This document shows positions 6,333 through 48,970 of a DNA stretch of 64,000 nucleotides, one piece after another. How positions within the stretch are numbered: the first letter of the stretch is position 1; each line of letters opens with the position of its first letter. The position numbers were made by a program, and so were the translations under genes. Under the pieces are notes generated by a model. That model had not been told where the DNA came from, did not search any database, and saw only the letters and a program-made list of their open reading frames with translations. The stretch lies in assembly GCF_003841465.1 (NCBI RefSeq), contig NZ_REFZ01000001.1, positions 124,001-188,000 on the forward strand, read 5' to 3'. This DNA comes from Natrarchaeobius oligotrophus (GTDB lineage Archaea; Halobacteriota; Halobacteria; Halobacteriales; Natrialbaceae).

Positions 6333-7483
6333 TGAGTCGGTCAGACGAACGCGCCGCGGAGTCGACCGCCGTCGCCGAGAGTGCGCGGTATCGACGCGAA
6401 TCGGTCGACCTTCGGCGAACGCTCGAGGTGGTCGGCGTCTCGCTCGTCGGCGTCCTCGGCGCGCTGATGATCGGGTTCGTCGCCCTCGACTGGATCCGCC
6501 ACTATCCCTACGCGGGAACGGTTCCGGGCCTCGAGACGCTGTACGCCGTTACGCAAATCGATCCGGCGGCCGGCGTCCTCTTCGAGCAGGTGCTGATCGC
6601 CGGCATGTGGGTCGATCACTTCCTCGGGACGAACGTCTTCCAGCACGCGTTCATGTGGCGGTCGATCGCCACCGGCGTTCTCGTCGGCATCGTCGCGCCG
6701 CTGGTCGGAACGTACCTCGTCCACCGGCAGATGGCGCTGATCGGGGAGACGCTCGCACACACCGCGTTCGCCGGGGTCGCGATCGGCCTGCTCGTCACCG
6801 CCGTGATCGGGTTCGACGGCTCGCTGTTGTTCGTCGCCCTGGTCGTGAGCATCCTCGGCGCGCTCGCGGTACAGTGGCTATCCGAGCGGACGAGCACGTT
6901 CGGCGACGTGCCGATCGCGATCATGCTCGCCGGGAGTTTCGCGGTCGGCACGCTGCTGATCAGCTGGGGGCGCGGGTTCATGTCGGTCGCGATCGACATC
7001 GAAGGGTTCCTGTTCGGGAGCCTCGCCGTCGTCACCGCCGACGGCGCGCGGATGATGGCCGTTCTCAGCGTCGCGGTCGTCGCGATCGTCGCCTACACGT
7101 ACAAACAGCTGCTGTTCATCACGTTCGACGAGCAGGCGGCTCGCGTCGCACAGCTCAACGTCTCGGGGTACAACACCCTGCTCGTCGTCATGACAGCCGT
7201 CGTGGTCGTCGGCGCGATGCAGGTCCTTGGCGTGATCCTCGTCGCCGGCATGCTCGTGATCCCCGTCGCTGCCGCCTCGCAGGTCGCGAGGAGCTTTCGC
7301 GAGACGCTGTACCTCTCGATCCTGATCGGCCAGGCGTCGATCCTCGGCGGCTTCGCGTTCGCGATCGGGCTGAGCCTCCCCTCGGGCGGATCGATCATCG
7401 TCGTCGCCATCCTGTTCTACCTGCTCTCGATCGCCCTCTCGATCCTCTCCGATCGCTCGAGCGCCGCCATCTCGATGCACTGA
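6332..7483 (+). CDS. znuB: zinc ABC transporter permease
   Basis: This 383-residue ABC-3 family permease (PF00950) has eight or nine hydrophobic segments. Landmarks are 'QHAFMWRSIATGVLVGIVAPLVGTYLVHRQMALIGE' (the conserved start of the permease core), 'GETLAHTAFAGVA', and 'GAMQVLGVILVAGMLVIPVA'. An N-terminal extension of about 100 residues carries one extra hydrophobic segment before the core, longer than in bacterial ZnuB. The ATG overlaps the znuC stop by one base, so the two are coupled. It forms the membrane channel for metal taken from ZnuA. Confidence 0.92.
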   Translation: MSRSDERAAESTAVAESARYRRESVDLRRTLEVVGVSLVGVLGALMIGFVALDWIRHYPYAGTVPGLETLYAVTQIDPAAGVLFEQVLIAGMWVDHFLGTNVFQHAFMWRSIATGVLVGIVAPLVGTYLVHRQMALIGETLAHTAFAGVAIGLLVTAVIGFDGSLLFVALVVSILGALAVQWLSERTSTFGDVPIAIMLAGSFAVGTLLISWGRGFMSVAIDIEGFLFGSLAVVTADGARMMAVLSVAVVAIVAYTYKQLLFITFDEQAARVAQLNVSGYNTLLVVMTAVVVVGAMQVLGVILVAGMLVIPVAAASQVARSFRETLYLSILIGQASILGGFAFAIGLSLPSGGSIIVVAILFYLLSIALSILSDRSSAAISMH

Positions 7484-7544
7484 GCGCGGGATTCGAGGAC
7501 GAACGTCGCCGGTCAACGTCGTCCCCGACCGTCAGGAACGTGGG

Positions 7545-7559
7545 ACGGGTTTAACCCGT
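7545..7559 (+). promoter_or_regulatory. perfect dyad centred on the TATA box of the acyl-CoA synthetase gene
   Basis: ACGGGTT-T-AACCCGT is a 15-nt perfect dyad. Its TTTAA centre lies 29 nt before the ATG at 7581, the position of a TATA box for a leaderless transcript. A dimeric repressor bound here would block TBP. The regulator is not identifiable from this window. Confidence 0.5.
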
Positions 7560-7580
7560 TTCAGGGTGACGTGCGCAACG

Positions 7581-9677
7581 ATGGGACGGGTAACCGATCT
7601 CTTCGAACCCGAGACCGTCGGCGTGATCGGGGCGACCGACCGCGAGGGAGCGGTCGGTCGGGCTATCCTCGAGAACCTGCGCGAGGAGTTCGCCGGCGAA
7701 CTGGTCGCGATCAATCCCTCGCGCGACGAGGTGCTCGGGCTCGAGTGTCACACAGACGTGGCGAGCGCGCCGCCGGTCGACCTCGCGGTCGTCGTCGTTC
7801 CGCCGTCGGCCGTCCTCGAGACGGTCCGCGAACTCGGCGAAGCGGGGACGGAACACGTCGTCGTCGTGACGGCGGGCTTTTCCGAGACGGGGAGCGAAGG
7901 CGCGCGACGGGAGCGGGAGCTTCGCGACGTCGCCGCGGCGTACGACCTCAACGTCGTCGGCCCGAACAGCCTCGGCGTCATGTCGACGGACGCCGGCCTG
8001 AACGCCACGTTCGGACCCGAGAGCGCGCTCGAGGGATCGATCTCGTTTATGAGCCAGTCCGGGGCGTTCATCACCGCCGTCCTCGACTGGGCGAACGAAC
8101 AGGGGATCGGCTTCCAGGACGTCGTCTCCCTGGGGAACAAGACCGTCCTCGACGAGACCGACTTCGTCCGCGCCTGGGGCGACGATCCCGACACCGACGT
8201 CGTGATCGGCTACCTCGAGGACATCGAAAACGGCGACGAGTTCGTCGAGGTGGCCCGCGAGGTGACCGAGGAGACGCCGATCGTCCTCGTCAAGTCCGGC
8301 CGCACTGACGCGGGCGCGAAGGCGGCCTCCTCCCACACCGGCGCGATCGCCGGCAGCGAGCGCGCCTACGAGGCGGGCCTCGAGCAGGCCGGCGTCGTCC
8401 GAGCCACCTCGGTCCAGGAGCTGTTCGACTACGCCAGGGCGCTCTCGGGCGGCACCGAACCGGCGTCGGACGGCGTCGCCGTGGTGACCAACGCCGGCGG
8501 ACCCGGCGTTCTGACGACCGACGCCATCGGCGACTCGACGCTCCGGATGGCGCAGTTCGACGACGGGACGATCGAGGCGCTGACCGACGCGATGCCCGCG
8601 GAGGCCAACGTCTACAATCCGATCGACGCCATCGGTGACGCGGACGTCGACCGGTTCGGCCGGGCGCTCGAGATCGCCCTCGCCGACCCCGACGTCGGCA
8701 GCGCGGTCGTCGTCAGCGCGCCGACGGCGGTCCTCGAGTACGACACGCTGGCCGAAACCGTCATCGAGAAACGCGAGGAGTTCGAGAAACCCGTCGTCAC
8801 CTGCCTGATGGGTGGACGGCGGGCCCGCGCGGCCGAGGAGGTGCTACGGGAGTTCGCCATTCCCAACTACTTCGACCCCTCGCGAGCGGTCGCGGGACTC
8901 GACGCGCTCGCGCGCTATCGCGACGTTCGCGCCCGAACGGTCGACGATCCCGAGCGGTTCGACGTCGACCGCGACCGCGCTCGGGCGATCCTCTCGCGAG
9001 CGGACCGCCGGGACGACAACCGCCTGGGGGTCGAATCGATGGACCTGCTCGAGGCGTACGGCATTCCGACTCCAGCCGGCGAGGTCGTCGGCGACCCCGA
9101 CCGGGCCCGCGAGGTCGCCCGCTCGATCGACGGCGACGTCGTCGTAAAGATCGTCAGCCCGGATATCTCGCACAAATCCGACATCGGCGGGGTTCGGGTC
9201 GGCGTCGGCGACGCCGACGTCTACGACGCCTACGAGGACGTCGTTTCCCGAGCGCGCAACTACCAGCCCGACGCGACCATCCTGGGCGTTCAGATCCAGG
9301 AGATGGTGAACCTCGAGGCGGCGACCGAGACGATCGTCGGAATGAACCGCGACCCGCAGTTCGGACCGCTGTTGCTGTTCGGTCTGGGCGGCATTTTCGT
9401 CGAGATCCTCGAGGATACTGCCGTTCGCGTCGCGCCGATCGGCGAGGGCGACGCCCGCGAGATGACCGACGAGATTCGGGCTGCACCGCTGTTGCGCGGC
9501 GCTCGCGGCCGTGAGCCCGCCGACGTCGATGCGGTCGTCGAGACGATCCAGCGACTCTCCCAGCTGGTGATCGACTTCCCCGCGATCCTCGAACTCGACG
9601 TCAACCCGCTCGTAGCCGGCCCCGAGGGCGTACAGGCGATCGACCTCAGACTCACCGTCGACACCGACGAGCTATGA
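7581..9677 (+). CDS. acd: ADP-forming acetate/acyl-CoA ligase, fused alpha and beta subunits
   Basis: This 698-residue NDP-forming acyl-CoA synthetase interconverts acyl-CoA + ADP + Pi and acid + CoA + ATP. It begins with a CoA-binding Rossmann domain ('VGVIGATDREGAVGRAIL'), followed by succinyl-CoA-ligase-like domains with the phosphorylated-His motif SSHTGAIAG, and ends with an ATP-grasp beta part ('VVKIVSPDISHKSDIGGV', 'LGGIFVEILEDTAVRVAP', 'LDVNPLV'). Haloarchaea use such fused enzymes to make acetate with ATP synthesis. ATG at 7581 is preferred over a GTG at 7566 because of its spacing from the TATA/dyad. Its stop overlaps the next ATG by 4 nt (ATGA). Confidence 0.92.
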   Translation: MGRVTDLFEPETVGVIGATDREGAVGRAILENLREEFAGELVAINPSRDEVLGLECHTDVASAPPVDLAVVVVPPSAVLETVRELGEAGTEHVVVVTAGFSETGSEGARRERELRDVAAAYDLNVVGPNSLGVMSTDAGLNATFGPESALEGSISFMSQSGAFITAVLDWANEQGIGFQDVVSLGNKTVLDETDFVRAWGDDPDTDVVIGYLEDIENGDEFVEVAREVTEETPIVLVKSGRTDAGAKAASSHTGAIAGSERAYEAGLEQAGVVRATSVQELFDYARALSGGTEPASDGVAVVTNAGGPGVLTTDAIGDSTLRMAQFDDGTIEALTDAMPAEANVYNPIDAIGDADVDRFGRALEIALADPDVGSAVVVSAPTAVLEYDTLAETVIEKREEFEKPVVTCLMGGRRARAAEEVLREFAIPNYFDPSRAVAGLDALARYRDVRARTVDDPERFDVDRDRARAILSRADRRDDNRLGVESMDLLEAYGIPTPAGEVVGDPDRAREVARSIDGDVVVKIVSPDISHKSDIGGVRVGVGDADVYDAYEDVVSRARNYQPDATILGVQIQEMVNLEAATETIVGMNRDPQFGPLLLFGLGGIFVEILEDTAVRVAPIGEGDAREMTDEIRAAPLLRGARGREPADVDAVVETIQRLSQLVIDFPAILELDVNPLVAGPEGVQAIDLRLTVDTDEL

Positions 9678-29930: not shown

Positions 29931-29949
29931 TATTGCATCTTGTGTGCAA
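29931..29949 (+). promoter_or_regulatory. operator-like dyad upstream of the wHTH/PIN pair
   Basis: ATTGCA-tcttgtg-TGCAAT is a perfect 6-nt inverted repeat with a 7-nt spacer, ending 13 nt before the ATG of the wHTH gene. The location fits autorepression by the wHTH protein, as in many toxin-antitoxin operons. Confidence 0.5.
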
Positions 29950-29962
29950 TTCGCTACTAAGG

Positions 29963-30478
29963 ATGGCAACGAGAGAATCGAACTGGGATACCCCGCTCGA
30001 TACTGGCGGTGAGGCGTTTGTACTCCTCGGAAACGCTCGCAAAGCATGGATATATACCTATATCCGTCACCATCCGGCGACGACAATTCAGGAGATTGTC
30101 GAGACGCTCGATCTCCCGCAGCGGACAGTCTACGAATACGTCGACGACCTTGAAGCCGCAGGCTTCATCGACCAGTCAAACGAGGGCCGACCGGCGGAGT
30201 ATACGGCTCAGGAGATCGACCTCCAACTGGTAGAAGACGATACCAAACGGCGAATCACGCCGGAGTTGGTCGAGGCGATTGCCCGTCGAACGCGGGACGA
30301 GGACATCGATACGTACATCGATCGCCACGGATTGGACGGGCTCGCCGTTGCGATCGAATACGCGCAGGAATACGTCGACGGATCGGTTACACATCACATC
30401 ATGGCTCGCGAGCAGGAGATCTCGCCCCTGGAGGCGGGTGTCATTCTGGATGCACTACGGCCGGTCGTTGAGGACTGA
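29963..30478 (+). CDS. winged-helix DNA-binding protein, probable antitoxin
   Basis: This 171-residue protein has a winged helix-turn-helix near residues 25-80: 'LGNARKAWIYTYIRHHPATTIQEIVETLDLPQRTVYEYVDDLEAAGFIDQS'. A helical C-terminal domain follows ('LVEAIARRTRDEDIDTYIDRHGLDGLAVAIEYAQEYVDG'). It is 5 nt upstream of a PIN-domain gene, an arrangement seen in haloarchaeal toxin-antitoxin modules where the wHTH protein represses the operon and the C-terminal domain may hold the toxin. ATG 29963 follows the dyad operator. Confidence 0.78.
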   Translation: MATRESNWDTPLDTGGEAFVLLGNARKAWIYTYIRHHPATTIQEIVETLDLPQRTVYEYVDDLEAAGFIDQSNEGRPAEYTAQEIDLQLVEDDTKRRITPELVEAIARRTRDEDIDTYIDRHGLDGLAVAIEYAQEYVDGSVTHHIMAREQEISPLEAGVILDALRPVVED

Positions 30479-30483
30479 TCGGT

Positions 30484-31029
30484 ATGGAAAGCGACAGAGA
30501 CGTCGTTTTCATCGATTCGTCGGTCCTCATTAGTTGTGGACGGCGGGAGAGCACACGCTTCCAAGCGCTGGCCCGTGAAGCCCGTCAGCGCGATACCGTC
30601 TTCCGCATCTCGCCACAGGTGTATGCCGAAGTGACCGGCGATCCAGCTTTCGAGGAGTATACCGCCGATGATGCAGCCGTCGACGAAGCACTCCAGGAGG
30701 GATGGATGAAGGTCACCGAAAGTCCATCCTATTCGATCTCGGAGGTTTCGAACGTGATGGATCAGGCGCGGAGCTTCATCGCGAGTGCCAGCGATCGAAC
30801 AGAAGATGCCGTCGAAAAAGCGGATACGGAAATTGTGGGTCTGGCGCTCGAAATGCTTCTCAACGACACCGCTGATCGGATCACGATCGTAACGAACGAT
30901 ATTCCACTTGGCGAAGCGGCAGAATCGCTACTTCCACAATACGGGTTCGACACCGATCAGATCACCTGGCTTACCGGTGGGGAACTCGCTGGCGAACTCG
31001 CCGAAGACTTCGTTTCCGAATTCGATTGA
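30484..31029 (+). CDS. PIN-domain protein, probable toxin nuclease
   Basis: This 181-residue protein has PIN-like features: 'VVFIDSSVLISCGRR' with the first acidic residue Asp11, a middle acidic stretch, 'DTEIVGLALEMLL' (third acid) and 'ITIVTNDIPLGEAAESLL' (the conserved TND near the end). PIN domains are Mg2+-dependent RNases. With the wHTH gene 5 nt upstream it looks like a toxin-antitoxin pair that stabilises the island. ATG 30484 gives the complete domain. The RNA target is unknown. Confidence 0.78.
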   Translation: MESDRDVVFIDSSVLISCGRRESTRFQALAREARQRDTVFRISPQVYAEVTGDPAFEEYTADDAAVDEALQEGWMKVTESPSYSISEVSNVMDQARSFIASASDRTEDAVEKADTEIVGLALEMLLNDTADRITIVTNDIPLGEAAESLLPQYGFDTDQITWLTGGELAGELAEDFVSEFD

Positions 31030-31193
31030 GTTCTTCGATACTGTTGGTATCGATGACGATCCAGTCCTCGTCGAGAAACAGGGAGGGGCACGCCGCAGTA
31101 TCCCGGGCAGAATCGATGACGGTGTCACGCCATGTCGGTCCGTCGACGAGTGCGACGAGACACATTTCCACGAGCGGATACGATCCACGCATC

Positions 31194-33014
31194 ATGAGCA
31201 GGAGTGACGAGCGATGGCCACCCGTCACAGAAGCAACGATCAGCGACCTCGCCAGGTCTAGCTCCTACGATCGCGGCCAGTCCTACTACGAGCGCGGCGC
31301 AGTCGGTGAGATGGTTCGCCGCGGGAAGACGGTCCGTGCCGACGTCGAGGGGAGCCAGTACCAACCTTACACGGTCACGATCGAGTTCGACGATGCTGGC
31401 GTTGCGGGCACGGAGTGTACCTGTCCGTACGACCACGGTGGCATCTGCAAACACCGTGTGGCAGTCCTGCTGACGTGTCTTCGCGATCCCGAGCGTGTCG
31501 ACGACAGGCCACCTGTCTCGGAATTGATCGAGGGAACGAGTCGTGAAAGCCTCGAGGAGTTGCTCATCGAGCTCGCCGAAAACCGCCCGGGGATTGCCGA
31601 GTGGATCGACCTCCGTCTCACGTCTGTAGATGCGACCGCTTCCGACACCACCGTCTCGGTGGATATCGAGTCTGTCCGCAAACGGGCGAACCACGCGTTG
31701 CCAAAGCCTGGTCAGCGAGGACACAGTGACGCCTATGCGGAGGCGGAGCGAATGGCGTCGGAACTCGACGAACTGATCGAGCAGGCACGGCAGGCACTGG
31801 ACGCTGGCGACGGAGAGACGGCAGTGGAGATTCTCGAGGCAGTCACGGAAGTGCTCGCGACCAACCGCTGGCCCGGACTGCTCCCGCGCGACGTCACCAA
31901 ACTCTACGAAACGTTGGCAGCGCTTGGCAAGACGTTCGCAGAAGCGATACTACTGGTCGAGTTGAGTGAGAGCGAACGCGAACAGTTGGAACAGCGTCTC
32001 ACCGAGTGGGACGAGCAGATACGACACTTTACCGGTAGACCGACGCTTGCTGTCGGCGCTGACGCAGCACGGGATGGGTGGGACGACGACCGACTCCAGC
32101 AGGCCCTCGATGGCTCTCTCGCTGCGGGGGAGCTCGACATCGACGAACCGGAGTACGTCGATGGTCTCACCACGGTACGTCTCGCCGCTCTCGAACGGCA
32201 GGAACGCACTGACAAGTATCTCAATCTGGCCAAGGCAGCGGGCAAGACCCAACTATATACCGAGATGCTGGCGCGAAAGGGCGAGATACAGGCGGCTGTC
32301 GACTGCGCAATCGAGAACCTCTCGACTCCGCAGTCGCTGCTGGAAATTGCAAAGATACTGCGTGCCACTGGCAACTCGATGGCTGCACTGGACGTTGCCG
32401 AACACGGACTGGCTGTCGATGGCGTACGGAAAGACAGGCTTACAGAGTGGCTCCGGGATCGGGCTGCGAGTCTGGGCGAGGAGGATCTTGCGCTCCGGGC
32501 TGGGATCGTTGCCTTCGAAGAGAGCCCATCGCCGAGTACGTATGGGTCTGTGGAAGAACTCGCAGGCGACGAGTGGGAGTCCGTTCGAAGTGAACTCCTG
32601 GCGTCACTCCGCGAGCAGCATCCGACGTCGCAACAGGCAGCCGAAGTATTCCTCGAGGAAGACCTGTACGACGAAGCCATCGAAGTTGCTGACCGCTCCG
32701 GCAGATTCCGCGTGGTCGAGACTGTCGTCGAGAAGGTCACGGCACATCGTCCCCAGTGGGTGATCCGTACGTGCAAATCGAACGCCGAGCCGATCGTCGA
32801 GCAGGGGAAACACGACAGCTACGAGACGGCTGTCCGCTGGCTCAGATACGCGGGCGAAGCAGCCCAAGAAGCCGACGAACTCGACGAGTGGCACGAGTAC
32901 GTCGAGACGATGCGTGAGAAACACTACCGGAAGTACAAGCTGCGACCCATGCTGGACGACCTGCTTGGCGAGTTTCGCTCTCCGGTCGATGGCGAGGTGA
33001 GTTCGGATGGCTGA
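31194..33014 (+). CDS. SWIM zinc-finger protein with a helical repeat region
   Basis: This 606-residue protein has a SWIM finger near the N terminus: Cys75, Cys77, Cys85 and His87 in ECTCPYDHGGICKH. The rest is almost all helix, with repeat-like blocks such as 'DKYLNLAKAAGKTQLYTEML', 'QSLLEIAKILRATGNSMAAL' and 'AAEVFLEEDLYDEAIEVA', resembling TPR/HEAT-like solenoids. SWIM fingers bind DNA or proteins; in bacteria and archaea they often accompany ATPases or nucleases, but none is encoded adjacent. ATG 31194 (MSRSDERWPPVTEATISDL) is chosen because upstream residues are not conserved in style. The gene's G+C is lower than the core genes. Confidence 0.85.
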   Translation: MSRSDERWPPVTEATISDLARSSSYDRGQSYYERGAVGEMVRRGKTVRADVEGSQYQPYTVTIEFDDAGVAGTECTCPYDHGGICKHRVAVLLTCLRDPERVDDRPPVSELIEGTSRESLEELLIELAENRPGIAEWIDLRLTSVDATASDTTVSVDIESVRKRANHALPKPGQRGHSDAYAEAERMASELDELIEQARQALDAGDGETAVEILEAVTEVLATNRWPGLLPRDVTKLYETLAALGKTFAEAILLVELSESEREQLEQRLTEWDEQIRHFTGRPTLAVGADAARDGWDDDRLQQALDGSLAAGELDIDEPEYVDGLTTVRLAALERQERTDKYLNLAKAAGKTQLYTEMLARKGEIQAAVDCAIENLSTPQSLLEIAKILRATGNSMAALDVAEHGLAVDGVRKDRLTEWLRDRAASLGEEDLALRAGIVAFEESPSPSTYGSVEELAGDEWESVRSELLASLREQHPTSQQAAEVFLEEDLYDEAIEVADRSGRFRVVETVVEKVTAHRPQWVIRTCKSNAEPIVEQGKHDSYETAVRWLRYAGEAAQEADELDEWHEYVETMREKHYRKYKLRPMLDDLLGEFRSPVDGEVSSDG

Positions 33015-33037
33015 GATGGGGGCTTCTGTCCCCACGC

Positions 33038-33394
33038 TTATCGTTCGAGCCAGTAGTGCCAGTCTTCGATGGCCTGCTCGGTGTCCGGACTGGGATCAAC
33101 AGGTTCCAATTGCTCCAGTGGGACGCCGAGTTCTCGATCCATCCACTCGACCGTCACGAACAGCTGACTGAGAGTTGGTTCTGGTGATGACATTCCCACC
33201 ACGTGCACCGTTTCGCCTTCCGTTAGCGGGGATTCCTCTCGTTCTTCGACACAGCGAGCTTCGAAGGGAAACTCGAGGAAATCGTCTATGTACGCATACC
33301 AGCCCATCGCCGCCTCCTCAGCACTATATGTATCGACGGTAATCCTCGTCTGGATACGCTCTTCGCGTTCTTCGTCCCGGTCTGGGCGTGTCAT
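33038..33394 (-). CDS. CcbP-like calcium-binding protein
   Basis: This 118-residue protein matches the calcium-binding family first described as cyanobacterial CcbP (PF11535). Key blocks are 'EERIQTRITVDTYSAEEAAMGWYAYIDDFLEFPFEARC', 'GETVHVVGMSS', 'FVTVEWMDRELGVPLEQLEPV' and the C-terminal 'EQAIEDWHYWL'. In Anabaena CcbP buffers Ca2+ during heterocyst development; in an archaeon its role is unknown. Its ATG overlaps the stop of the upstream coiled-coil gene by 4 nt (ATGA), so the two are translationally coupled. Confidence 0.85.
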   Translation of the reverse strand: MTRPDRDEEREERIQTRITVDTYSAEEAAMGWYAYIDDFLEFPFEARCVEEREESPLTEGETVHVVGMSSPEPTLSQLFVTVEWMDRELGVPLEQLEPVDPSPDTEQAIEDWHYWLER

Positions 33395-34392
33395 GGCTCG
33401 CCTCCCGCTCGGGTGTGGTACGCTTGCCCGGACTTGAACTCGGTCAACTCATCGATACGAGCCTCCAGATCCTCGATCTCCTGTCGGAGTTCCTCGGCCT
33501 CTTCTCCGCCCGTGGCCGCGAGTTGATCTTTCAGGCCCTGAAGGCGACTCTCCTTTCGTTCTTCGTCGACCTCGGCCTTGCGGACGTACTCGCGCTCTTC
33601 GGTCTCGTACACATCGCTCTCGGAGAGTTCGGTTACCTCGAGTGCGTCGTCGACCTTCTCGCGATCAACACCCAGTACGCGCTCGCGGTCGATCCCGGCT
33701 TCTTCGAGCGTTTCCAGGACTTCTTTATCGCCTTTCAGCGTCCGATTGCGCCTCGTGGTCCGCTGGACGGATCCGAACGGCCCGCTCACCGGTCGGTCGT
33801 GATGGAGTCGATTCAGCAGCACGTCGGCAACGTCTTGACGGAGGTCGTTTGCATTCCGCTGGACATCGGACAGTAAGGTGTAGAGGTTCACCAGGGCATC
33901 CGTCTCTATCTCCTCCAACACGTCGACTTCGTGTCGTTCGAGTGCGTCAACCAGCAATAGTGCGTCCGCATACACCTCGAGGTCGGGTTCGGTTCGTTCG
34001 TGCTCGTCGGACTCGGATGTCTCTGCGGTGTCGAGAAGCTGGCTGGTCGTCGCTTCCTCTTTCTCCTCGATCACACCTCGGTCTTCGTCGATCTCGAATC
34101 GCGGATGGAGGCTCAACACTGCCGGGAACGGATCGGCGTCTGCCGGAAGTCTATCGAGTTCGAAGTCTCCCGCCTCTTCGGTGATCCGACGATAGAGCGT
34201 TTCGAACTGATCGCGTTGAAGCGGTCGTGTCTCGTCGATTTCACGGTCGAGGAACTCGATGACGACCCGCTGTTCCTGAACGTCAGTAACGCGAAATCGG
34301 TCGTGGGACAGCGGCGTAATCAACGTGGCCCCTTCCGGGAGAGCGTCGAGTTCCTCGAGAAGCGTGTGCCACGAGACGCTGAACGGTGCCAT
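33391..34392 (-). CDS. coiled-coil protein of unknown function coupled to CcbP
   Basis: This 333-residue acidic protein has an N-terminal beta-rich part ('WHTLLEELDALPEGATLITPLSHDRFRVTDVQEQRVVIEFLD'), a helical middle ('LLLVDALERHEVDVLEEIETDALVNLYTLLSDVQRNANDLRQDVADVLLNRLHHDRP') and a C-terminal coiled coil ('LQGLKDQLAATGGEEAEELRQEIEDLEARIDEL'). No enzymatic motif is visible. It precedes and overlaps the CcbP-like gene by 4 nt, suggesting a Ca2+-linked partner. ATG 34392 is used because upstream residues are not conserved in style. Confidence 0.7.
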   Translation of the reverse strand: MAPFSVSWHTLLEELDALPEGATLITPLSHDRFRVTDVQEQRVVIEFLDREIDETRPLQRDQFETLYRRITEEAGDFELDRLPADADPFPAVLSLHPRFEIDEDRGVIEEKEEATTSQLLDTAETSESDEHERTEPDLEVYADALLLVDALERHEVDVLEEIETDALVNLYTLLSDVQRNANDLRQDVADVLLNRLHHDRPVSGPFGSVQRTTRRNRTLKGDKEVLETLEEAGIDRERVLGVDREKVDDALEVTELSESDVYETEEREYVRKAEVDEERKESRLQGLKDQLAATGGEEAEELRQEIEDLEARIDELTEFKSGQAYHTRAGGEP

Positions 34393-34549
34393 ACGGTAAC
34401 GCTTGGAAGGAAGGCTACTAAACCGTGGGGAACAGATCGACTCCATCGATATCCCAGCTCTTGTGTTCGTCTTCGGTGTGAAACATTTCTCCAAACTGTA
34501 ACTGTGTCGACTGACGTGGATTCAAGAGGAACCTCCACGAACTCTCGGT

Positions 34550-34915
34550 ATGGTCGATGATTCGGATTCCGAAACGACGCCTTCGTTTCTCTCGTCGCTT
34601 CCAGATCAGCCGATCACGGATGACGTCGTAAAGCAGATCGGCGAAAGCGACCACCCGAAAATTCACGGTGCAATGGGTTTTCCCGGCTCGACACCGGGCT
34701 CGATCGAAGCATTCCTCCTGAATATGGAAGAGGCGACTCACGTGCTCGTGTTCGACTCGTCCGAGGGACGATGGCGGGTCTACGAGTCGTTCGATAACAC
34801 CGACATGGCTCATCAAGAAATGATCGACCATGCCACCGAGATTGCCAACGACTGGTTCGCAGAGAGTCTTGCCGGCCGTGTTGCGCGTGCAGAAGACGCC
34901 GATTCAGAGCTATGA
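34550..34915 (+). CDS. small protein of unknown function, pair member 1
   Basis: This 121-residue protein reads 'FLSSLPDQPITDDVVKQIGESDHPKIHGAMGFPGS', then 'LLNMEEATHVLVFDSSEGRWRVYESFD' and a C-terminal helix 'MIDHATEIANDWFAESL'. The middle part looks like a small alpha/beta sensor. The gene overlaps the next by 4 nt (ATGA), so the two products are probably made together. No family is recognised. It starts divergently from the coiled-coil gene on the other strand. The island's accessory nature makes a plasmid or virus origin plausible. Confidence 0.65.
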   Translation: MVDDSDSETTPSFLSSLPDQPITDDVVKQIGESDHPKIHGAMGFPGSTPGSIEAFLLNMEEATHVLVFDSSEGRWRVYESFDNTDMAHQEMIDHATEIANDWFAESLAGRVARAEDADSEL

Positions 34916-35406
34916 AGGTACGCTACTACGCAGACGCGGAGATACGAGAGATGCACAACCACGCGATACGTCTGTTAACGCAGCTTCATGACGAACACGG
35001 CATCACCGTCGAGATTGATCGGATCGACGAACAGCACGATCCGATCACTGACTTCCCCGATGAAGTGCGGCGTCTACCACCTGAAGAGGTCTACGAGCGC
35101 GATTTCAAGCGTAATCGTGCCCTGAATGCGGTCATCGAACAGACGCCGTCGGAAGCCTTCAAACACTACGGAACGCTCGACATCGCCGGGAACGTCGCCG
35201 TCGTCGATGAGGAGGGAACCGTTCAGTGGGCTTCGACACTTCCGGGATATGCGGACGGATATGGCCCGGGTGCCGAATCACAGACAGCAATGGACTTTCT
35301 CGAAGATATCGCTACGTCGCCAAGTACCCGTATCTGTATCGAGTGTCTACACCTGTTGGACGGCGATGAGAACTTCTGTCCGAACTGTGGTAACGGTCTT
35401 CCGTAG
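34912..35406 (+). CDS. zinc-ribbon protein of unknown function, pair member 2
   Basis: This 164-residue protein begins MKVRYYADAEIREMHNHAIRL, with a thioredoxin-like or alpha/beta N-terminal half. It contains 'ALNAVIEQTPSEAFKHYGTLDIAGNVAVVDEEGTVQWASTLPGYADGYGPGAESQTAMDFLEDIA', and ends with a zinc ribbon: CIEC, a spacer of 10 residues, then CPNCG near residues 143-161. The N-terminal domain has no CxxC. It overlaps the upstream gene by 4 nt and is probably its partner. No function can be assigned. Confidence 0.65.
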   Translation: MKVRYYADAEIREMHNHAIRLLTQLHDEHGITVEIDRIDEQHDPITDFPDEVRRLPPEEVYERDFKRNRALNAVIEQTPSEAFKHYGTLDIAGNVAVVDEEGTVQWASTLPGYADGYGPGAESQTAMDFLEDIATSPSTRICIECLHLLDGDENFCPNCGNGLP

Positions 35407-35988
35407 GTGGGGTGGCCGTCTCAGTACGCATGATTATTCTCGAAAGCAACAACACTGCGTTCTCGAGGCCATATTTCGTACCCTACGACTTCGCAGTCTT
35501 TCGGTTTTGTTTTTCAAAATCTGCGATGGGTGCTGCTGCGTATCGAGAAGCGTTGAAGCAAGGGTGGATCGGAGAGCCACGGTGAGTTTCGGTGGTGAAG
35601 CGCTCGCACGGTGCGACGCTGCGAGGGCAGCCGTGGTACCGTGAGTTCCGAGAAGGCGTCCTGATGTTTGTTATTTACAACGTCGAGCGCGCCTCTCCGC
35701 CACTACGATTCCGACGCCGCACCCCCTACTCGACGAGACACGCAGCATATCTCAGACTCTTCGAACTTCGTCGGAGAATCCGACGCAAACCCGGACGAGA
35801 AGCCCGGAAAGAAATCGATCGAACTGTTCTCCGACTCACCAACAATGTCCTTCACAAGATCGAATGTGGCAATCCTGTCTACATACTGAAAAGCTGGACA
35901 CAGCGAACGGCTTCTCGGATAGATGGTCGCTGGATCACGATACGATTATACTCGTTGGGTAAATACAGATCAGACTACGGTACTCGAT
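35407..35988 (+). other. gene-poor stretch with a transposase relic
   Basis: Apart from the transposase fragment at 35592-35694 nothing coding is convincing. The DNA is AT-richer than the core, with T- and A-runs such as gttttgtttttcaaaat (about 35505-35521), in keeping with decayed inserted DNA. Confidence 0.5.
35592..35694 (+). pseudogene. C-terminal fragment of an ISH-type transposase
   Basis: The frame reads VVKRSHGATLRGQPWYREFR followed by EGVLMFVIYNVERA. This is the end of the catalytic domain of haloarchaeal IS4/IS5-like transposases (pattern VKRxxGxxLRxxxWYxxFREIVLxxxVYNxERA, with the DDE glutamate in FRE). The upstream part is missing or disrupted by stops, and no terminal inverted repeats were found. 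The exact IS family is uncertain. Confidence 0.5.
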
Positions 35989-38188: not shown

Positions 38189-38818
38189 TCAATCAGTCGG
38201 GAGAATCCGCCTGTGGGTTTCCAGCAGCTGTTCTACCCCGATAACGACCGCAACGAGGACCACCCCGAGAACCACGAGGCCGAGCGAGCCGATTCCGGTG
38301 GTGGAAAGTATCCCGACCTGAACCCCTGGCGCCCAGCTCAACACGGTGAACGCGAGTTCCAGACCCAGGAGTCCGCCGACGATCGCGATCAGCCCGTGTC
38401 CGCCGACCACCGTCAGTCGAGAGCGATCGATCTCGGAAACTCGAGGTGGTTTCTCGCTCCGTCGATAGACGCCGTCCCACATCGATCCCGCACGTTCGGT
38501 CCCTCGGGTGTGTGCACGCCAGCCAACTCCGTCCGCATCAGCGTCCGTGGGTGACTGTGTCGTCTGCGTTCGAGAGCGGGTCGTCGACGGTCTAGTGGCG
38601 TCGGATTGTCCACCATCCACTCCCGCTTCGTCGTACCGTGCTCGCTGTTTCGGGTCGCTGAGGACGTCGTAGGCCTCCTTGACCCGCATAAACAGCTGTG
38701 CAGCGTTCGGATGATCCGATTGGTCAGGATGCGTTTGCTTGACTTTCGTTCGATACGCCGTTTCGATCTCGTCCTGTGAGGCGTCTTCGGTGACTCCGAG
38801 AATCTCGTAATAGTTCAT
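38189..38818 (-). CDS. membrane-anchored J-domain protein
   Basis: This 209-residue protein starts with a canonical J domain (MNYYEILGVTEDASQDEIET, HPD at residues 30-32, 'AYDVLSDPKQRARYDEAG'). A polar Ser/Thr/Asp-rich linker follows (about 70-130), then two membrane helices (about 140-160 and 166-190) and a short basic tail. J domains stimulate Hsp70 (DnaK), so this should recruit the chaperone to the membrane. Its ATG overlaps the stop of the upstream HEAT-HNH gene by 4 nt (ATGA), implying a shared function. It is distinct from the core DnaJ, as it lacks the Cys-rich zinc domain. Confidence 0.85.
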   Translation of the reverse strand: MNYYEILGVTEDASQDEIETAYRTKVKQTHPDQSDHPNAAQLFMRVKEAYDVLSDPKQRARYDEAGVDGGQSDATRPSTTRSRTQTTQSPTDADADGVGWRAHTRGTERAGSMWDGVYRRSEKPPRVSEIDRSRLTVVGGHGLIAIVGGLLGLELAFTVLSWAPGVQVGILSTTGIGSLGLVVLGVVLVAVVIGVEQLLETHRRILPTD

Positions 38819-39927
38819 GCGTCGAACACCCTGGCGTGGCGCGCTTCGTGGCACTCGCGACACAGCGTGCGCAGATTCTCGGGATCGTCGCTCCCGCCAA
38901 CGCTCCGTGGCGTCTGATGGTCGACGTGTAACTCGGCGTCACCGTTTGGACCGCCACCGACGCCGCAGTTCCGACAGTAGTACCCGTCACGTTGGCGCAC
39001 TACGCTCGCCCGAATCCCCCAGTCGTCGGGAAGCGGTGGGGTCTGCTGTCGAATATCCTCCGACACGGGCGCTCGACCGGGCAGAAACGGAAAGATTTGC
39101 GTCGCCGTCGGCCACATCGACGCGCGCAGATACAGCGCTCGCCGCGCTCGGTTTCCGAAAAATTTGAGCTTCCGAAGCTCGTGGAGCATCACCTTTCCGC
39201 GCCCCATCGGGCTCAAATGCTGAAACCGATACGCAAAGCGCAACGCGTTGAGAATCGCGATATAGAACAACAGCGGAATCGCCGCGCCCCAGACGATCGA
39301 TCTCAACCCGATCTGAGCGGGTTTGCTGAGTCCGGTGGTTCGAGGGGTCGGAGCCAGATCGGCTTCCAGTGGCCGACTCGCCATGTCGCCACCGTCGAGT
39401 ACGTCGATAGCCGTTTCGACCAACGCGCTGTCGACGTCACACGAGTCCAGCACCGCTTCCGCGTCGGGTCTCTCCAGGAAGTCGACGAGACTTTCCCTGA
39501 TCGCCTCTCTCGGGGTCACCAGATCGGGCCGTAACACCGCAATCCTCGAGACGGCTCCGGCCGCCATTCCCCGCTCTTTTTCGAGGTCGCTCTCCCGAAG
39601 CAGTTCGTGGAGCAGTTCGGTCGTGTGTCCGAACTCCTGTGGATACCAGCGAGCGAGATTGTACACGACTGCGAGTGCACCACCGCGAACGGCCTCCGAT
39701 TCGTCGTCCAGCCGCGAGACGATTCCCGGCGTTTGTTCCCGAAGTTGAAGCGGATAGGACGCCGACATCTTGATCATAACGTCCAACGCGCCGTAGCGAA
39801 CGCGAGAATCGTCGTGGACTACCCACTTGCGTAATCGGTCGCGGTGTTTGAGCCCGGACGAGGGGTCGCGTTCGACCTCCCGTTGAATTTGCTCGATCGT
39901 CGAACGGAGGTTTTTCGTCGAACTCAT
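38815..39927 (-). CDS. membrane-anchored HEAT-repeat HNH endonuclease
   Basis: This 370-residue protein has three parts. Residues about 1-180 are helical HEAT-like repeats ('DDSRVRYGALDVMIKMSASYP', 'SEAVRGGALAVVYNLARWYP'). One membrane helix lies at about 209-229. The C terminus is an HNH nuclease with Cys318/Cys321, the catalytic HVDH (334-337), Asn351 and Cys356/Cys359 plus His364. HNH domains nick or cut DNA. Anchoring of such a nuclease in a membrane and coupling (4-nt overlap) to a J-domain protein is unusual and recalls phage-defence modules; that role is inferred. Confidence 0.85.
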   Translation of the reverse strand: MSSTKNLRSTIEQIQREVERDPSSGLKHRDRLRKWVVHDDSRVRYGALDVMIKMSASYPLQLREQTPGIVSRLDDESEAVRGGALAVVYNLARWYPQEFGHTTELLHELLRESDLEKERGMAAGAVSRIAVLRPDLVTPREAIRESLVDFLERPDAEAVLDSCDVDSALVETAIDVLDGGDMASRPLEADLAPTPRTTGLSKPAQIGLRSIVWGAAIPLLFYIAILNALRFAYRFQHLSPMGRGKVMLHELRKLKFFGNRARRALYLRASMWPTATQIFPFLPGRAPVSEDIRQQTPPLPDDWGIRASVVRQRDGYYCRNCGVGGGPNGDAELHVDHQTPRSVGGSDDPENLRTLCRECHEARHARVFDA

Positions 39928-44481: not shown

Positions 44482-44937
44482 ATGACTGGAGACAATCACG
44501 ATCGTGGTCAAACTCATTTCGATTTTCTGATCGGATTCTCGGTATTTATCGTGGCGGTGATGTTCGTCTTCACCTCCGTTCCGGGCCTGATCACTCCCTT
44601 CGACGAGAGCGAAACCGCGAACCCGCTGCTCGCGGATCGGATCGCCGACGACCTCTCCGAATCGACGCTGGTCGACTCGTCCGGCTCGGCACAGCTCAAC
44701 GAGAGCGCGGCCGAGGCGTTTTTCGTCGACGCGAGTGAAGACGAGGTTCGTTCGATCCTCGGAATCGACGATCGACGGTCGTTCAACGTTTCGATCACGA
44801 ACTCGACGACCGGCACACAGCTCGACGAGTACGCCGTCGGCGACCCCGTACCCGACGAGACGGGCCAGGTGACGGTCACACAGCGGATACTGCTGGCCGA
44901 CGGCGAGTCGTACTGGCTGTCCGTCCGGGTGTGGTGA
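44482..44937 (+). CDS. pilin-like membrane-anchored protein 1
   Basis: This 151-residue protein begins with a short polar head (MTGDNHDRGQTHFDFLIGF) and a single hydrophobic helix, then an extracellular-type domain ('DDLSESTLVDSSGSAQLNESAAEAFFVDASEDEVRSIL', 'TNSTTGTQLDEYAVGDPVPDETGQVTVTQRI'). The RGQ before the helix and the layout resemble archaeal type IV pilin-like proteins (DUF7287 type, from memory). It is first in an operon of five genes with overlaps or gaps of a few bases. Its function is probably in a surface filament or pseudopilus; that is inferred from architecture only. Confidence 0.75.
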   Translation: MTGDNHDRGQTHFDFLIGFSVFIVAVMFVFTSVPGLITPFDESETANPLLADRIADDLSESTLVDSSGSAQLNESAAEAFFVDASEDEVRSILGIDDRRSFNVSITNSTTGTQLDEYAVGDPVPDETGQVTVTQRILLADGESYWLSVRVW

Positions 44938-44939
44938 CC

Positions 44940-45527
44940 ATGGAGCGAGGACAGATTCACGCGCTGGAAGGGATCCTGGCCGCGGTGTTGCTCGTGTTGA
45001 GTCTCGTTTTCGCGCTCCAGGTGTCCGCCGTGACGCCGATGACCGAGAGCACGTCCAGCCAGCACATCGAAAACCAGCAGCGAGCCGTCGGCACCGATCT
45101 GCTCCAGGCGGCGGCCGAGGACGGATCGCTGAAAGCGGCCGTGCTCTACTGGGACAACGACAGCGCGACGTACCACGGTTCGAATCCGGACGGAATCTAC
45201 ACGAACGATCTCCCCGACGAACTTCGGCTCGGAAGCGAACTCGAGCGGACGCTCACCGATCGAGGGATCGCGTACAACCTGGAGGTGAACTACGTCGACG
45301 ACGGCGAGGTCCGGTCGCGGACGATCGTCAAGCAGGGTGAACCGAGCGATCACGCGGTGACGGCGACGCAGGTGCTCACCCTCTACGAAGGCGATCCGCT
45401 CACGGACGAAAGCGGCGACCCCGACGGGACGGGGTTGGGAGAGGGGACGACGTTCTACGCCCCGAACGAATCGGACGAACCGCTGTACAACGTGGTCGAA
45501 ATCGAGTTGAGACTATGGCGGATGTGA
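44940..45527 (+). CDS. pilin-like membrane-anchored protein 2
   Basis: This 195-residue protein starts MERGQIHALEGILAAVLLVL, a charged head and one hydrophobic helix, followed by a soluble outer part ('DNDSATYHGSNPDGIYTNDLPDELRLGSELERTLTDRGIAYNLEVNYVDDGEVRSRTI'). The helix residue pattern (ALEG, where the Glu is at position 5 of the class III signal helix) recalls archaeal pilins processed by PibD. It lies 2 nt after the first gene and overlaps the third by 13 nt. DUF7288-like, from memory. Confidence 0.75.
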   Translation: MERGQIHALEGILAAVLLVLSLVFALQVSAVTPMTESTSSQHIENQQRAVGTDLLQAAAEDGSLKAAVLYWDNDSATYHGSNPDGIYTNDLPDELRLGSELERTLTDRGIAYNLEVNYVDDGEVRSRTIVKQGEPSDHAVTATQVLTLYEGDPLTDESGDPDGTGLGEGTTFYAPNESDEPLYNVVEIELRLWRM

Positions 45528-46456
45528 ACGCGAGCGAGACCCGAAACCGGGGCCGACGGCGCGGACAGCTCCTGTTGATCACCGGGTTGATGCTCGCGAT
45601 TACCCTCGTGTTTCTCGCGGTGCTTTTGAACGGCGTCATCTACGCCGAAAACCTGGGGACGCGCGGGAGCGATATCGGCGGTCACGAGACCGTTCGCTTC
45701 GAGACCGCCGCGGCCGACGCCGGCGAGCGGTTCGTGGTGGCGACCAATCGCGACGCCGACCCGCACGCGGACCACGCAGACCTCGTCGACCGGGTCGACG
45801 CGGCGGTCGCCGACTGGGACGACCAGTCGAGACAACACCTCGTCCGGGACGGCAGTTACAGCCGCGTCTCGCTCGCGGATGCGGAGGACGGCGCGCGGAT
45901 TCACCAATCGGACTCGGGTCCCTTCGAGAGCGCCAACGACGAGGGCAACTGGACCGTCGTCGAAAACGGCGACGTGCGAAACGCCTCGATGCGGGTCGAC
46001 GACGTCGACGGAACCTTCCGTCTGACCGTGACGACCGCCGCGTCGACGTGGAATCTGACCGTCGAAGACGCAGGCGACGTCGAGGTGGCCGCCGAGCTGG
46101 ACGGAGCCGACGTCGCGGAGTGTTCCGTGAGTCAGCCCCCGTTCGAGATCGATTTCGTCGACGGAACCGTCGACGGCGACCGCTGTGGCGGGGAGCCGAT
46201 GGTCTTCGCGGGCGGTCTCGAGGGGCCGTACGAGACGGTCGCGCTCGTCGGCGGTGACGAACTCGAAGGTGCCTACGATCTGACGACGAACGACACCGCA
46301 CCGCTGTCCTCGAGCGAGTTCGAGGACCCGGGCGGGGACTCGCCGATCGCGGAATCCGAACTGTACTCCGTCGACCTCTCGCTCACGCACGAAACCGACC
46401 GCATCGACTACCAGTCGACCGTCACCGTCACACCAAACACGCACTATGGACGATAA
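45515..46456 (+). CDS. pilin-like membrane-anchored protein 3
   Basis: This 313-residue protein has an Arg-rich N terminus (TRNRGRRRGQLLLITG), one hydrophobic helix (about 18-42) and a long beta-rich outer part with several N-glycosylation-type sequons (NWT, NAS, NLT). It resembles the DUF7261 type. It overlaps the gene before it by 13 nt and the one after it by 11 nt, so translation is coupled. It is probably the largest outer subunit of the operon's assembly. Confidence 0.75.
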   Translation: MADVNASETRNRGRRRGQLLLITGLMLAITLVFLAVLLNGVIYAENLGTRGSDIGGHETVRFETAAADAGERFVVATNRDADPHADHADLVDRVDAAVADWDDQSRQHLVRDGSYSRVSLADAEDGARIHQSDSGPFESANDEGNWTVVENGDVRNASMRVDDVDGTFRLTVTTAASTWNLTVEDAGDVEVAAELDGADVAECSVSQPPFEIDFVDGTVDGDRCGGEPMVFAGGLEGPYETVALVGGDELEGAYDLTTNDTAPLSSSEFEDPGGDSPIAESELYSVDLSLTHETDRIDYQSTVTVTPNTHYGR

Positions 46457-46892
46457 GGCCGTTTCGACCGCGTTGAACTACGTGCTCCTGCTCGGAATCA
46501 CCGTGTTACTCATGGGCGGGCTCTCCGTGGCGGCCGGCGACTTGCTCGAGACCCAACACGAGGGAGCAGTGAACGCGGAACTCGACGTGATCGGAGAGCG
46601 AATCGTCGCCGACCTCCAGACCGCGGATCGGTTGACTCGGGCCGATGGTACGGCCGAGACCGTCCTCGTTCGATCGTCGCCGCCGGAGACGATCAGCGGC
46701 GGCCACTACTCCGTGAGAATCGTCCACGTCGGCGGCGAAACGAGGCTGATCCTCGAGAGCGCGTCCGCCGACGTCACGACCGAAACGACCGTTCCGACGA
46801 CGACCCCGGTCGCCGAAACGGGACTGATCGGCGGCCCGCTCGAGATTCGGTACGACGACGAGAACGGCGAACTGGTGATCGCCGATGGATGA
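46446..46892 (+). CDS. pilin-like membrane-anchored protein 4
   Basis: This 148-residue protein begins MDDKAVSTALNYVLLLGITV, the typical archaeal pilin start (charged head, VSTALNYV before the helix). The outer part is beta-rich ('VRIVHVGGETRLILESASADVTTETTVPTTTPVAETG', 'GPLEIRYDDENGEL'). DUF7266-like, from memory. It overlaps the neighbours on both sides (11 and 8 nt). No function beyond pilus-like assembly can be inferred. Confidence 0.78.
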   Translation: MDDKAVSTALNYVLLLGITVLLMGGLSVAAGDLLETQHEGAVNAELDVIGERIVADLQTADRLTRADGTAETVLVRSSPPETISGGHYSVRIVHVGGETRLILESASADVTTETTVPTTTPVAETGLIGGPLEIRYDDENGELVIADG

Positions 46893-47673
46893 ACGCGGCG
46901 TCACCGAGTTGATCGGCTACACCGTCATCTTCGGGATCGTGCTCCTGTCGTTCAGCATGCTCTTTCTCGTCGGCACGACGAGCGTCACCGACTCCCGGGA
47001 GCGAACCCAGGTCGACAACGCGGAAGCGGCGTTCGAAATCCTCGCGGAGAACGTCGACGAGCACGCCTTCGACCGCGCGGTCGGGCGCGCGACGGAGATC
47101 AAAGTCGCCGACGCGAGCCTCTACTTCGGCCCCGAGGAGTCGGTCAACGTGACGATCATGCCCGACGGAGCAGGAAGCGGGGAGGAAAACGTCACCCTGT
47201 ACGACCGGTCGTCCGAACCGATCGTCTACGAATCGCGAGACGGAACGAGCGTAGTGTACGCGAACGGGGCGCTGTTCCGGGAGGAAACCGACGAGAGCCG
47301 GATGGTCAGAGAACCCTACGCCCGAATCGACGAGAACCGAACCGTCCTGCCCCAGATCCGGTTTTCGAACGCCGAGGGCAGACTCACGATCGGCGGATCG
47401 GAGACCGTTCTCGTCCGGACCGAGCGGCTGTCACCGAGATTCGAGCAGAACACGACGTACCAGGAGTACGACCTCGAGATCACGATCACCACGACCGACC
47501 GTCGCGCCGAGGCCTGGCAGTCCTACTACGACTCGTTCGAGATTCTCGAGTGTCCCGACAGCCGGATCGTCGACCTCCCCGACGAGGGAGCCGAACTGAC
47601 GTGTCAGACGGACGGTCACACGACGGCCGAAGTGTACGTTCCCGAGACGAGACTCGACGGCGAGTTCAGCTGA
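46885..47673 (+). CDS. pilin-like membrane-anchored protein 5
   Basis: This 262-residue protein starts MDERGVTELIGYTVIFGIVL, another archaellin/pilin-like head and helix, then an outer beta-rich domain ('SVNVTIMPDGAGSGEENVTLYDR', 'YARIDENRTVLPQIRFSNAEGRLTIGGSETVLVRTE', 'YYDSFEILECPDSRIVDLPDEGAELTCQ') with two Cys residues that may form a disulfide. It is the last gene of the operon and converges, with an 8-nt overlap, with the sixth pilin-like gene on the other strand. Confidence 0.78.
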   Translation: MDERGVTELIGYTVIFGIVLLSFSMLFLVGTTSVTDSRERTQVDNAEAAFEILAENVDEHAFDRAVGRATEIKVADASLYFGPEESVNVTIMPDGAGSGEENVTLYDRSSEPIVYESRDGTSVVYANGALFREETDESRMVREPYARIDENRTVLPQIRFSNAEGRLTIGGSETVLVRTERLSPRFEQNTTYQEYDLEITITTTDRRAEAWQSYYDSFEILECPDSRIVDLPDEGAELTCQTDGHTTAEVYVPETRLDGEFS

Positions 47674-48970
47674 ATCGGACCTCGACTTCGTTTTCCGTGA
47701 TCTGGAGGTAGGTCACGAACCCTTCGGCCTCGTAGTCGATGTACGCGCCGGACTCGTCGTGGTCGACGCGCTGTGCGCCGGTTTTGTCCTCGACCGTCAG
47801 ATCGACGTTCGGTCCGTACGCTTCGATGGTCTCGTTGAACAACTCGCCGAGTTCCCGCTGAGTACCGTCGTACTCGGCGGAGACGTTCGCCGTCAGGTCG
47901 ACCTCGACGGTGTCCGGGTCGGTGCTCTGGTTCACTTCGAAGGCGTCGTCGGCGACCCACTCGTTACCGTCCGAATCCGTGAGCGTCACGTCGACCCAGC
48001 CGTGGCCCTGGCCGTGGACGTTGACGAATTCGATTCCGTCGACCTCGAGGCTCCAGTCTAAATTGTTCAGCCCGGAAGCGCCGTCGCCGGCCAGGGTCAC
48101 GGTGAAGTTGTTCATCGGGTCCTCTTCCTCGGCGGCCCGGATACGGATCTTGCCGCCGTCGCTCAGCGGCGTCGCCCCGATGTCGCCGAGTGTCAGCAAC
48201 TCGACGGTCGCGGTTTCGTTTCCGTGATCGACCGACACGTTCCCCTGGGTTCGTTCCTCGAAGTACGTTTCCCAGCCGCGGTAGTAGTCGCTCTGGACGG
48301 TCACCTCGATCGTGCCGTTTTCGATGGGGTTTCTGTACTCCGCGCCGTCTTTCTGATACGTCCGCGAACTGGGGTAGATGCGATCCGTCCCGCTCCGTTG
48401 GTGGGCGACGATGTCGGATTTCCCCGATCGACGCTGATCGCCGGTGACGTTGATGACCGGGAGCGTGAGCGTTCCGTATCGGTAGTGAAACTCGGGCGGC
48501 GAGACCATGGTGGTGTGGTCGTCGTCTTGCTTCCAGACGCCGCCGCCCTGGTAGGCGACCGTCGTTCCGTCGTTCGCGTACGTGACGGTGCCGAGCGAGA
48601 ACGAGTCGTGACCGATCAGTTCGCGATCCCCGTCGCCGGTTCGGTTGAGGTGTGCGATCTCGATCGATCCCGCCGTCCCGTCGATCGCGTACGTTCCGTC
48701 GGTGTTGTCGACGGAGACGGTCTGTACCGAGGACTCCCCGAGCGACACTTCCGACACCTTCGATCCGAGGAGCGCGAGTTCGTTCTCCGCGGCACCCACT
48801 TCGGTCGTCTGCTGGTGTCCGTCGAGAACGGCCATTCCCGCGATAAAAAGCCCAGTGGCTGATATTATAGTAAATCCAAGTAGAAGGACGAGTCCGAGAA
48901 TCTCCGATTGCGACCGATCGTCCGAAAGCACGTCGGGCTCGCTCTCGTTCACCGATCTCCGAGATATCAC
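47666..48970 (-). CDS. pilin-like membrane-anchored protein 6, opposite strand
   Basis: This 434-residue protein carries the pilin-like head 'SDDRSQSEILGLVLLLGFTIISATGLFIAG' and a long outer domain. 'QSEILGLVLLLGFTI' matches DUF7289-type proteins (family name from memory) and the type I pilin signal. The outer part has sequons (NVT, NFT, NVS) and a repeated glycine/aspartate pattern. GTG 48970 fits a TATA-like element centred near 49000 (leaderless); GTG 48952 is an alternative. It converges with the five-gene operon and is likely a partner regulated separately. Confidence 0.75.
   Translation of the reverse strand: MISRRSVNESEPDVLSDDRSQSEILGLVLLLGFTIISATGLFIAGMAVLDGHQQTTEVGAAENELALLGSKVSEVSLGESSVQTVSVDNTDGTYAIDGTAGSIEIAHLNRTGDGDRELIGHDSFSLGTVTYANDGTTVAYQGGGVWKQDDDHTTMVSPPEFHYRYGTLTLPVINVTGDQRRSGKSDIVAHQRSGTDRIYPSSRTYQKDGAEYRNPIENGTIEVTVQSDYYRGWETYFEERTQGNVSVDHGNETATVELLTLGDIGATPLSDGGKIRIRAAEEEDPMNNFTVTLAGDGASGLNNLDWSLEVDGIEFVNVHGQGHGWVDVTLTDSDGNEWVADDAFEVNQSTDPDTVEVDLTANVSAEYDGTQRELGELFNETIEAYGPNVDLTVEDKTGAQRVDHDESGAYIDYEAEGFVTYLQITENEVEVRFS

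Follow-up and report, generated by a model that had tools for sequence, protein, structure and literature searches.

Zorya type II has a membrane complex to which it brings an HNH nickase (PMC11890865). Chaperone control of an immune effector is known in few systems, one of which is CmdTAC, where a chaperone senses a capsid protein and a toxin is then released (PMC11618068). For GAP1-N2 conflict systems, Kaur et al. (2020, PMC7159879) list Hsp70 and GrpE, a further Hsp70 NBD, and a fusion of DnaJ with FNIII repeats. We found no system in which a nuclease is controlled by Hsp70 and a membrane J protein. Likewise, the literature on HNH proteins with DnaJ in defence or in haloarchaea yielded no description of the HEAT-TM-HNH/J pair reported here, in agreement with the sequence-only reading, which knew of no described defence system of this composition.

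Here, we analysed a window of 64,000 nucleotides from Natrarchaeobius oligotrophus, in which the genes of a HEAT-TM-HNH protein and a J-domain membrane protein overlap on the minus strand. They make up a genuine module, whose members pair exclusively and co-evolve, and this pair is rare, patchy, and laterally transferred as a compact unit. Its features are as follows.

38815-39927, minus strand: gene of the HEAT-TM-HNH protein, 370 aa (intact ORF; HNH Pfam match 1.7e-12; AlphaFold2 [AF2] model).
39388-39927, minus strand: predicted HEAT/ARM solenoid, residues 1-180 (AP-3 delta profile, E 1e-9; AF2 pLDDT ~90; Foldseek, HEAT/ARM).
39349-39393, minus strand: juxtamembrane motif GGDMASRPLEADLAP, residues 179-193 (alignment; pLDDT ~32; motif scan).
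39241-39297, minus strand: predicted lone hydrophobic membrane helix, residues 211-229 (hydropathy and flanking charge).
38836-39021, minus strand: predicted HNH nuclease domain, residues 303-364 (Pfam; invariant residues in the alignment).
38189-38818, minus strand: gene of the J-domain membrane protein, 209 aa (ORF; Pfam DnaJ 4.6e-23; downstream of every homologue).
38618-38818, minus strand: J domain, residues 1-67, with HPD at residues 30-32 (Pfam, alignment).
38501-38527, minus strand: pair-specific linker motif VGWRAHTRG, residues 98-106 (8/8 paired versus 0/15 other J proteins).
38225-38395, minus strand: two predicted membrane helices, residues ~142-198 (hydropathy; AF2, low confidence).

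The nuclease had been read from the sequence as a HEAT part at residues 1-180, a membrane helix, and an HNH domain with Cys318/321, His334/337, and Cys356/359. All of these were placed correctly, with the core of the helix at residues 211-229, and the cysteines and histidines are invariant across the aligned homologues, as are Asp336, Asn351, and His360/364. The HNH domain bears the signature NLRTLCRxCHEARHxRxF, is akin to IscB- and McrA-type domains, and matches PF01844 above the cut-off at residues 318-366; with the His-Asn-His residues and zinc cysteines of this family, the protein is a predicted DNase. HEAT repeats are weak in the single sequence (HEAT_2 0.0045, below the Pfam cut-off). 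When seven homologues are combined into a profile, residues 27-113 match the AP-3 delta solenoid, and the AF2 model folds residues 1-177 into a helical solenoid whose best PDB matches in Foldseek are HEAT/armadillo folds. By profile and model, the HEAT part is thus a predicted alpha solenoid of paired helices of the HEAT/ARM type. Just before the membrane helix, GGDM.SR.LE.DL is kept in every HEAT-bearing homologue, and the stretch bearing it is predicted to be disordered despite this conservation.

The J gene runs from an ATG at 38818 to a stop codon ending at 38189; a longer ORF from a GTG at 38863 was rejected as an over-extension, the conserved start being the ATG. The proposed 4-nt overlap of the nuclease gene with that of a J-domain protein bearing two membrane helices was borne out, since both ORFs are intact and the overlap reads ATGA. 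The only convincing Pfam match in the J protein is the J domain (residues 2-63), whose HPD is invariant in an alignment of seven homologues, and the remainder consists of a linker and two hydrophobic helices. Hydropathy places their cores at residues 142-160 and 166-184, and AF2 predicts helices at residues 127-162 and 176-198 with low confidence. Judged by its sequence, the protein fits the class C type of J proteins, with HPD present and the DnaJ zinc-finger and C-terminal client domains absent.

Hydropathy and flanking charge assign a single hydrophobic core to the nuclease, with a strongly positive C-terminal side, so the HNH domain is predicted to be cytoplasmic. If the helix spans the membrane, HEAT and HNH would lie on opposite sides, and the 200-residue HEAT domain would end up outside with no signal peptide to take it there. 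Both domains would stay inside if the anchor were monotopic or re-entrant, and a proline within the helix of most members hints at this. The J domain and the positive C-terminus of the J protein are probably cytoplasmic. Hence, the nuclease is likely a membrane-tethered predicted DNase.

Two genome searches, both of which begin with a fast first look and may miss some relatives, located the full HEAT-TM-HNH protein at eight loci in 7/392 sampled Halobacteriales genomes and no full-length relative outside Halobacteria among 84,980 species genomes, where a lone HNH-only bacterial match was seen. In the Halobacteriales genomes, a sharp gap separates the full-length proteins from HNH-only matches. 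GTDB species genomes with the full protein include those of Natrarchaeobius chitinivorans, Halonotius roseus, Halolamina salifodinae, Natronorubrum thiooxidans, and SHR40, which carries it twice. No relative was found on viral contigs, and plasmids gave HNH-domain matches only, covering at most 31% of the query. HEAT-only and HNH-only matches (L062-L069) were set aside as other architectures, with no J neighbour in the gene lists.

Co-occurrence of homologues, proposed earlier as a check on the pair, was confirmed: the J gene lies directly downstream of the nuclease gene at 8/8 loci, with one pair split by contig ends. This same gene order at all full-length homologues implies that the pairing is more than chance. 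The junction is a 4-nt overlap in N. oligotrophus, Halonotius, and Halolamina, an 8-nt overlap in genome G292, and a gap of 1-4 nt in others. Pairwise identities of the two proteins correlate (r=0.95), a value matched by 3/5040 label permutations. The motif WxAxTRG, within a linker that is otherwise variable, occurs in all eight J proteins of the pairs and is absent from the 15 further haloarchaeal J proteins with HPD that we examined, a comparison set that includes some close relatives of one another. Together with GGDMxSRxLExDL of the nuclease, it might form contacts between the two proteins. In Halohasta litorea and Halorubrum sp. Atlit-26R, also GTDB species genomes, the helix and HNH domain occur without HEAT and without this J partner, so some versions can dispense with the J protein.

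Trees of the pair resolve two clades with 100/100 support that cut across three families (f1, f4, f5). In H. roseus, the pair is a ~2.83-kb insert (L034 8539-11372) with no other recognised gene. The insertion site is empty in 4/4 congeners, in which the flanks lie 4-47 bp apart, and sequence within the insert, on either side of the pair, recurs elsewhere in the genus; a look for terminal repeats around the insert gave nothing convincing. In N. oligotrophus, the stretch between tRNA-Arg (29204) and the ABC genes differs among members of the genus, with congeners carrying neighbouring blocks elsewhere, which upholds the island setting proposed from the sequence. Among these congeners, only N. 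chitinivorans has the pair, at a different locus. There, a transposase gene (L033 8106-9348) splits the HEAT part of the nuclease gene, and the SHR40 C21 copy is frameshifted; the module is thus dispensable. Part of what would have counted against the sequence-only reading was homologues always lying in core, non-mobile contexts; the pair proved patchy and laterally moved.

A block at 29933-35536 has a reversed, 91% identical counterpart next to the tRNA-Arg of a congener (G197:C6:220973-226569); its genes encode a SWIM zinc-finger protein, a CcbP-like calcium-binding protein, and two proteins of 333 and 164 aa. The last two have homologues on the SHR40 contig bearing the J gene of a pair (L051), and the SWIM gene has one close to another SHR40 pair (L035). 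A short sequence at 35745-35863, repeated on two other contigs of the same genome (81-88%), is probably mobile-element debris. Downstream of the ABC transporter genes, 44482-48952 encodes a series of small pilin-like membrane or secreted proteins.

Hsp70 genes at some loci fit the idea that the J protein brings DnaK to the nuclease. Most pair loci, including the N. oligotrophus window, have no local DnaK, so housekeeping DnaK would have to serve there. DnaK is adjacent to or near genes of the wider family at three loci (L048, L050, and L060). At L050, DnaK and a J-like gene lie just upstream on the same strand, and at L060, DnaK and a J-like protein are encoded divergently. At L048, in G292, DnaK adjoins a gene for an Hsp70 NBD fused to a GrpE-like C-terminus (6499-8403), and the locus also carries genes for a vWA protein, an Ig-repeat protein with an N-terminus that is J-domain-like by eye, and a putative P-loop protein. 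Candidates for GAP1-N2 and a TRAFAC GTPase were recognised at this locus only, and Pfam and NCBIfam give these GAP1-like and GTPase-like genes no supporting label. In Halohasta, the HEAT-less TM-HNH gene is followed by one for a Cdc48-like AAA+ ATPase.

Short DnaK paralogues (~520 aa) adjoining J-domain proteins recur across Halobacteria in core-looking contexts (L073-L082), and no recurring HNH partner was recognised at these loci. N. oligotrophus itself encodes a short DnaK and a J-like protein (L072 6798-11437) about 2 kb from an HNH gene of a different type. Since short DnaK-J pairs are common in haloarchaea outside the context of the pair, a DnaK neighbourhood alone is weak evidence.

A look for defence islands around homologues, as the sequence-only reading had proposed, showed no enrichment. 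Counted blindly at E 1e-15, PADLOC matches were no commoner in 99 neighbouring genes than in 98 genes from random regions of six of the seven genomes, a small and weak test in which the control genes were longer, which favours matches, and many control matches were housekeeping paralogues. Among the neighbours, inspection by eye picked out helicases of Mokosh-like (MkoA 2e-78) and UvrD type, a type IIG enzyme, and a QueC/TGT set.

Further gene groups were noted around these loci. L050 (8743-16035) and L059 (189-11227) share, near the TM-HNH gene, a UvrD-like helicase gene and a gene of ~325 aa that is Cas7-like by eye, perhaps part of an unusual CRISPR-type or helicase system. In SHR40, QueE-, FolE-, and QueC-like genes and a TGT-like gene near the pairs (L052 164-2062 and L050 18640-19998) are reminiscent of a 7-deazaguanine DNA modification cluster.

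Our analysis suggests that the pair is an undescribed switchable defence or conflict device. The leading explanation, to which we assign a probability of roughly 0.4, is a membrane DNase gated by Hsp70 and the J protein and acting against foreign DNA. Both gene products would form one membrane complex, in which the HNH domain would sit at the membrane next to a HEAT solenoid serving for recognition, and the dedicated J protein would bring Hsp70 (DnaK) to the nuclease. The resting complex would be kept silent. The trigger might be incoming DNA, a protein of a virus, or stress affecting the membrane or folding; the chaperone itself, the HEAT domain, or the conserved juxtamembrane motif would meet it. 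J-stimulated cycling of Hsp70 would then alter or free the nuclease, which would cut the DNA of the invader or, as abortive defence, that of its own cell. We infer complex formation, DNase activity, Hsp70 gating, defence purpose, and trigger. It is tempting, if doubtful, to see here a new principle of archaeal immunity, in which Hsp70 engaged by invader proteins or folding stress turns on cleavage by a membrane nuclease with a dedicated J gate. Being small and mobile, and found in Halobacteria alone, for which genetics (Haloferax, Haloarcula) and haloviruses are available, the module makes Hsp70 gating of an archaeal nuclease directly testable.

Part of this evidence would also suit a membrane nuclease for DNA surveillance or import that has no antiviral role and degrades DNA entering through the envelope by uptake, cell fusion, or plasmid transfer, with the J protein only folding or inserting the nuclease. 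The start of the J gene inside or directly after the nuclease gene and the membrane segments in both proteins agree with such a role, and haloarchaea do exchange DNA by cell fusion. Rarity and patchiness (7/392), the two broken copies, and mobility nevertheless speak against a steady housekeeping role, and we consider this explanation unlikely. The mobility of the pair might instead be that of a selfish nuclease, its HNH gene spreading in the manner of free-standing homing endonucleases and the J protein helping it or travelling along. The compact insert at a site empty in congeners, the recurrence in the genus of sequence on either side of the pair within the H. roseus insert, and the kinship of the HNH domain to IscB and McrA types would suit it, but insertion sites are unrelated between genomes, and to our knowledge, homing endonucleases have neither a membrane helix nor a HEAT solenoid nor an exclusive J partner; such an origin seems highly improbable.

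The pair might also be the effector of an Hsp70/GTPase-centric conflict system, acting in G292 downstream of the adjacent GAP1-like, vWA, and Hsp70 genes and working with scattered components elsewhere. The L048 gene set resembles the systems described in PMC7159879. Yet this set is present at only 1/8 loci, and the GTPase and GAP1 identities stand without Pfam or NCBIfam support, so that we hold the proposal to be improbable. Finally, a C-terminal nuclease behind a membrane segment, accompanied by a small dedicated partner gene, recalls a weapon against kin, with the HNH domain as the toxin of a membrane-delivered bacteriocin-like protein and the J protein either aiding delivery as a chaperone or conferring immunity. 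This is the least probable of the explanations considered, as no signal peptide or delivery domain was seen and conservation of the protein is highest at the HNH end, where a toxin end would be diversified.

Compared with known systems, the Hsp70/J-gated DNase that we favour has partial counterparts. Accessory haloarchaeal DnaK-J pairs (L073-L082) likewise have a J protein encoded next to a short DnaK, but they include no HEAT-HNH protein, and their J proteins lack WxAxTRG. With GAP1-N2 systems, as far as the accessible part of PMC7159879 describes them, the pair shares Hsp70/GrpE/DnaJ chaperone parts in mobile neighbourhoods, and L048 lies beside a similar gene set; the other pair loci lack those genes, GAP1 and GTPase at L048 are candidates only, and a HEAT-TM-HNH protein with a membrane J protein was not found in that part of the source. 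Zorya type II (ZorAB + ZorE) resembles the pair in combining a membrane assembly with an HNH nuclease, and the HNH domain of the pair matches the ZorE2 profile at 3e-8. This match is confined to the HNH domain and scores 20.9 against an NCBIfam cut-off of 600 bits, and the nuclease of the pair carries its own membrane helix. Neither ZorA nor ZorB was seen beside the pair in the gene lists, inspected by eye, or among PADLOC matches to its neighbours, and we do not assign the pair to Zorya type II, whose motor genes were not found adjacent. CmdTAC combines a SecB-like chaperone with an ADP-ribosyltransferase in place of the J protein and HNH nuclease, and no antitoxin gene was seen with the HEAT-HNH/J pair. 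What the two may have in common, for the pair as an idea only, is a chaperone that keeps an effector silent until a viral protein appears.
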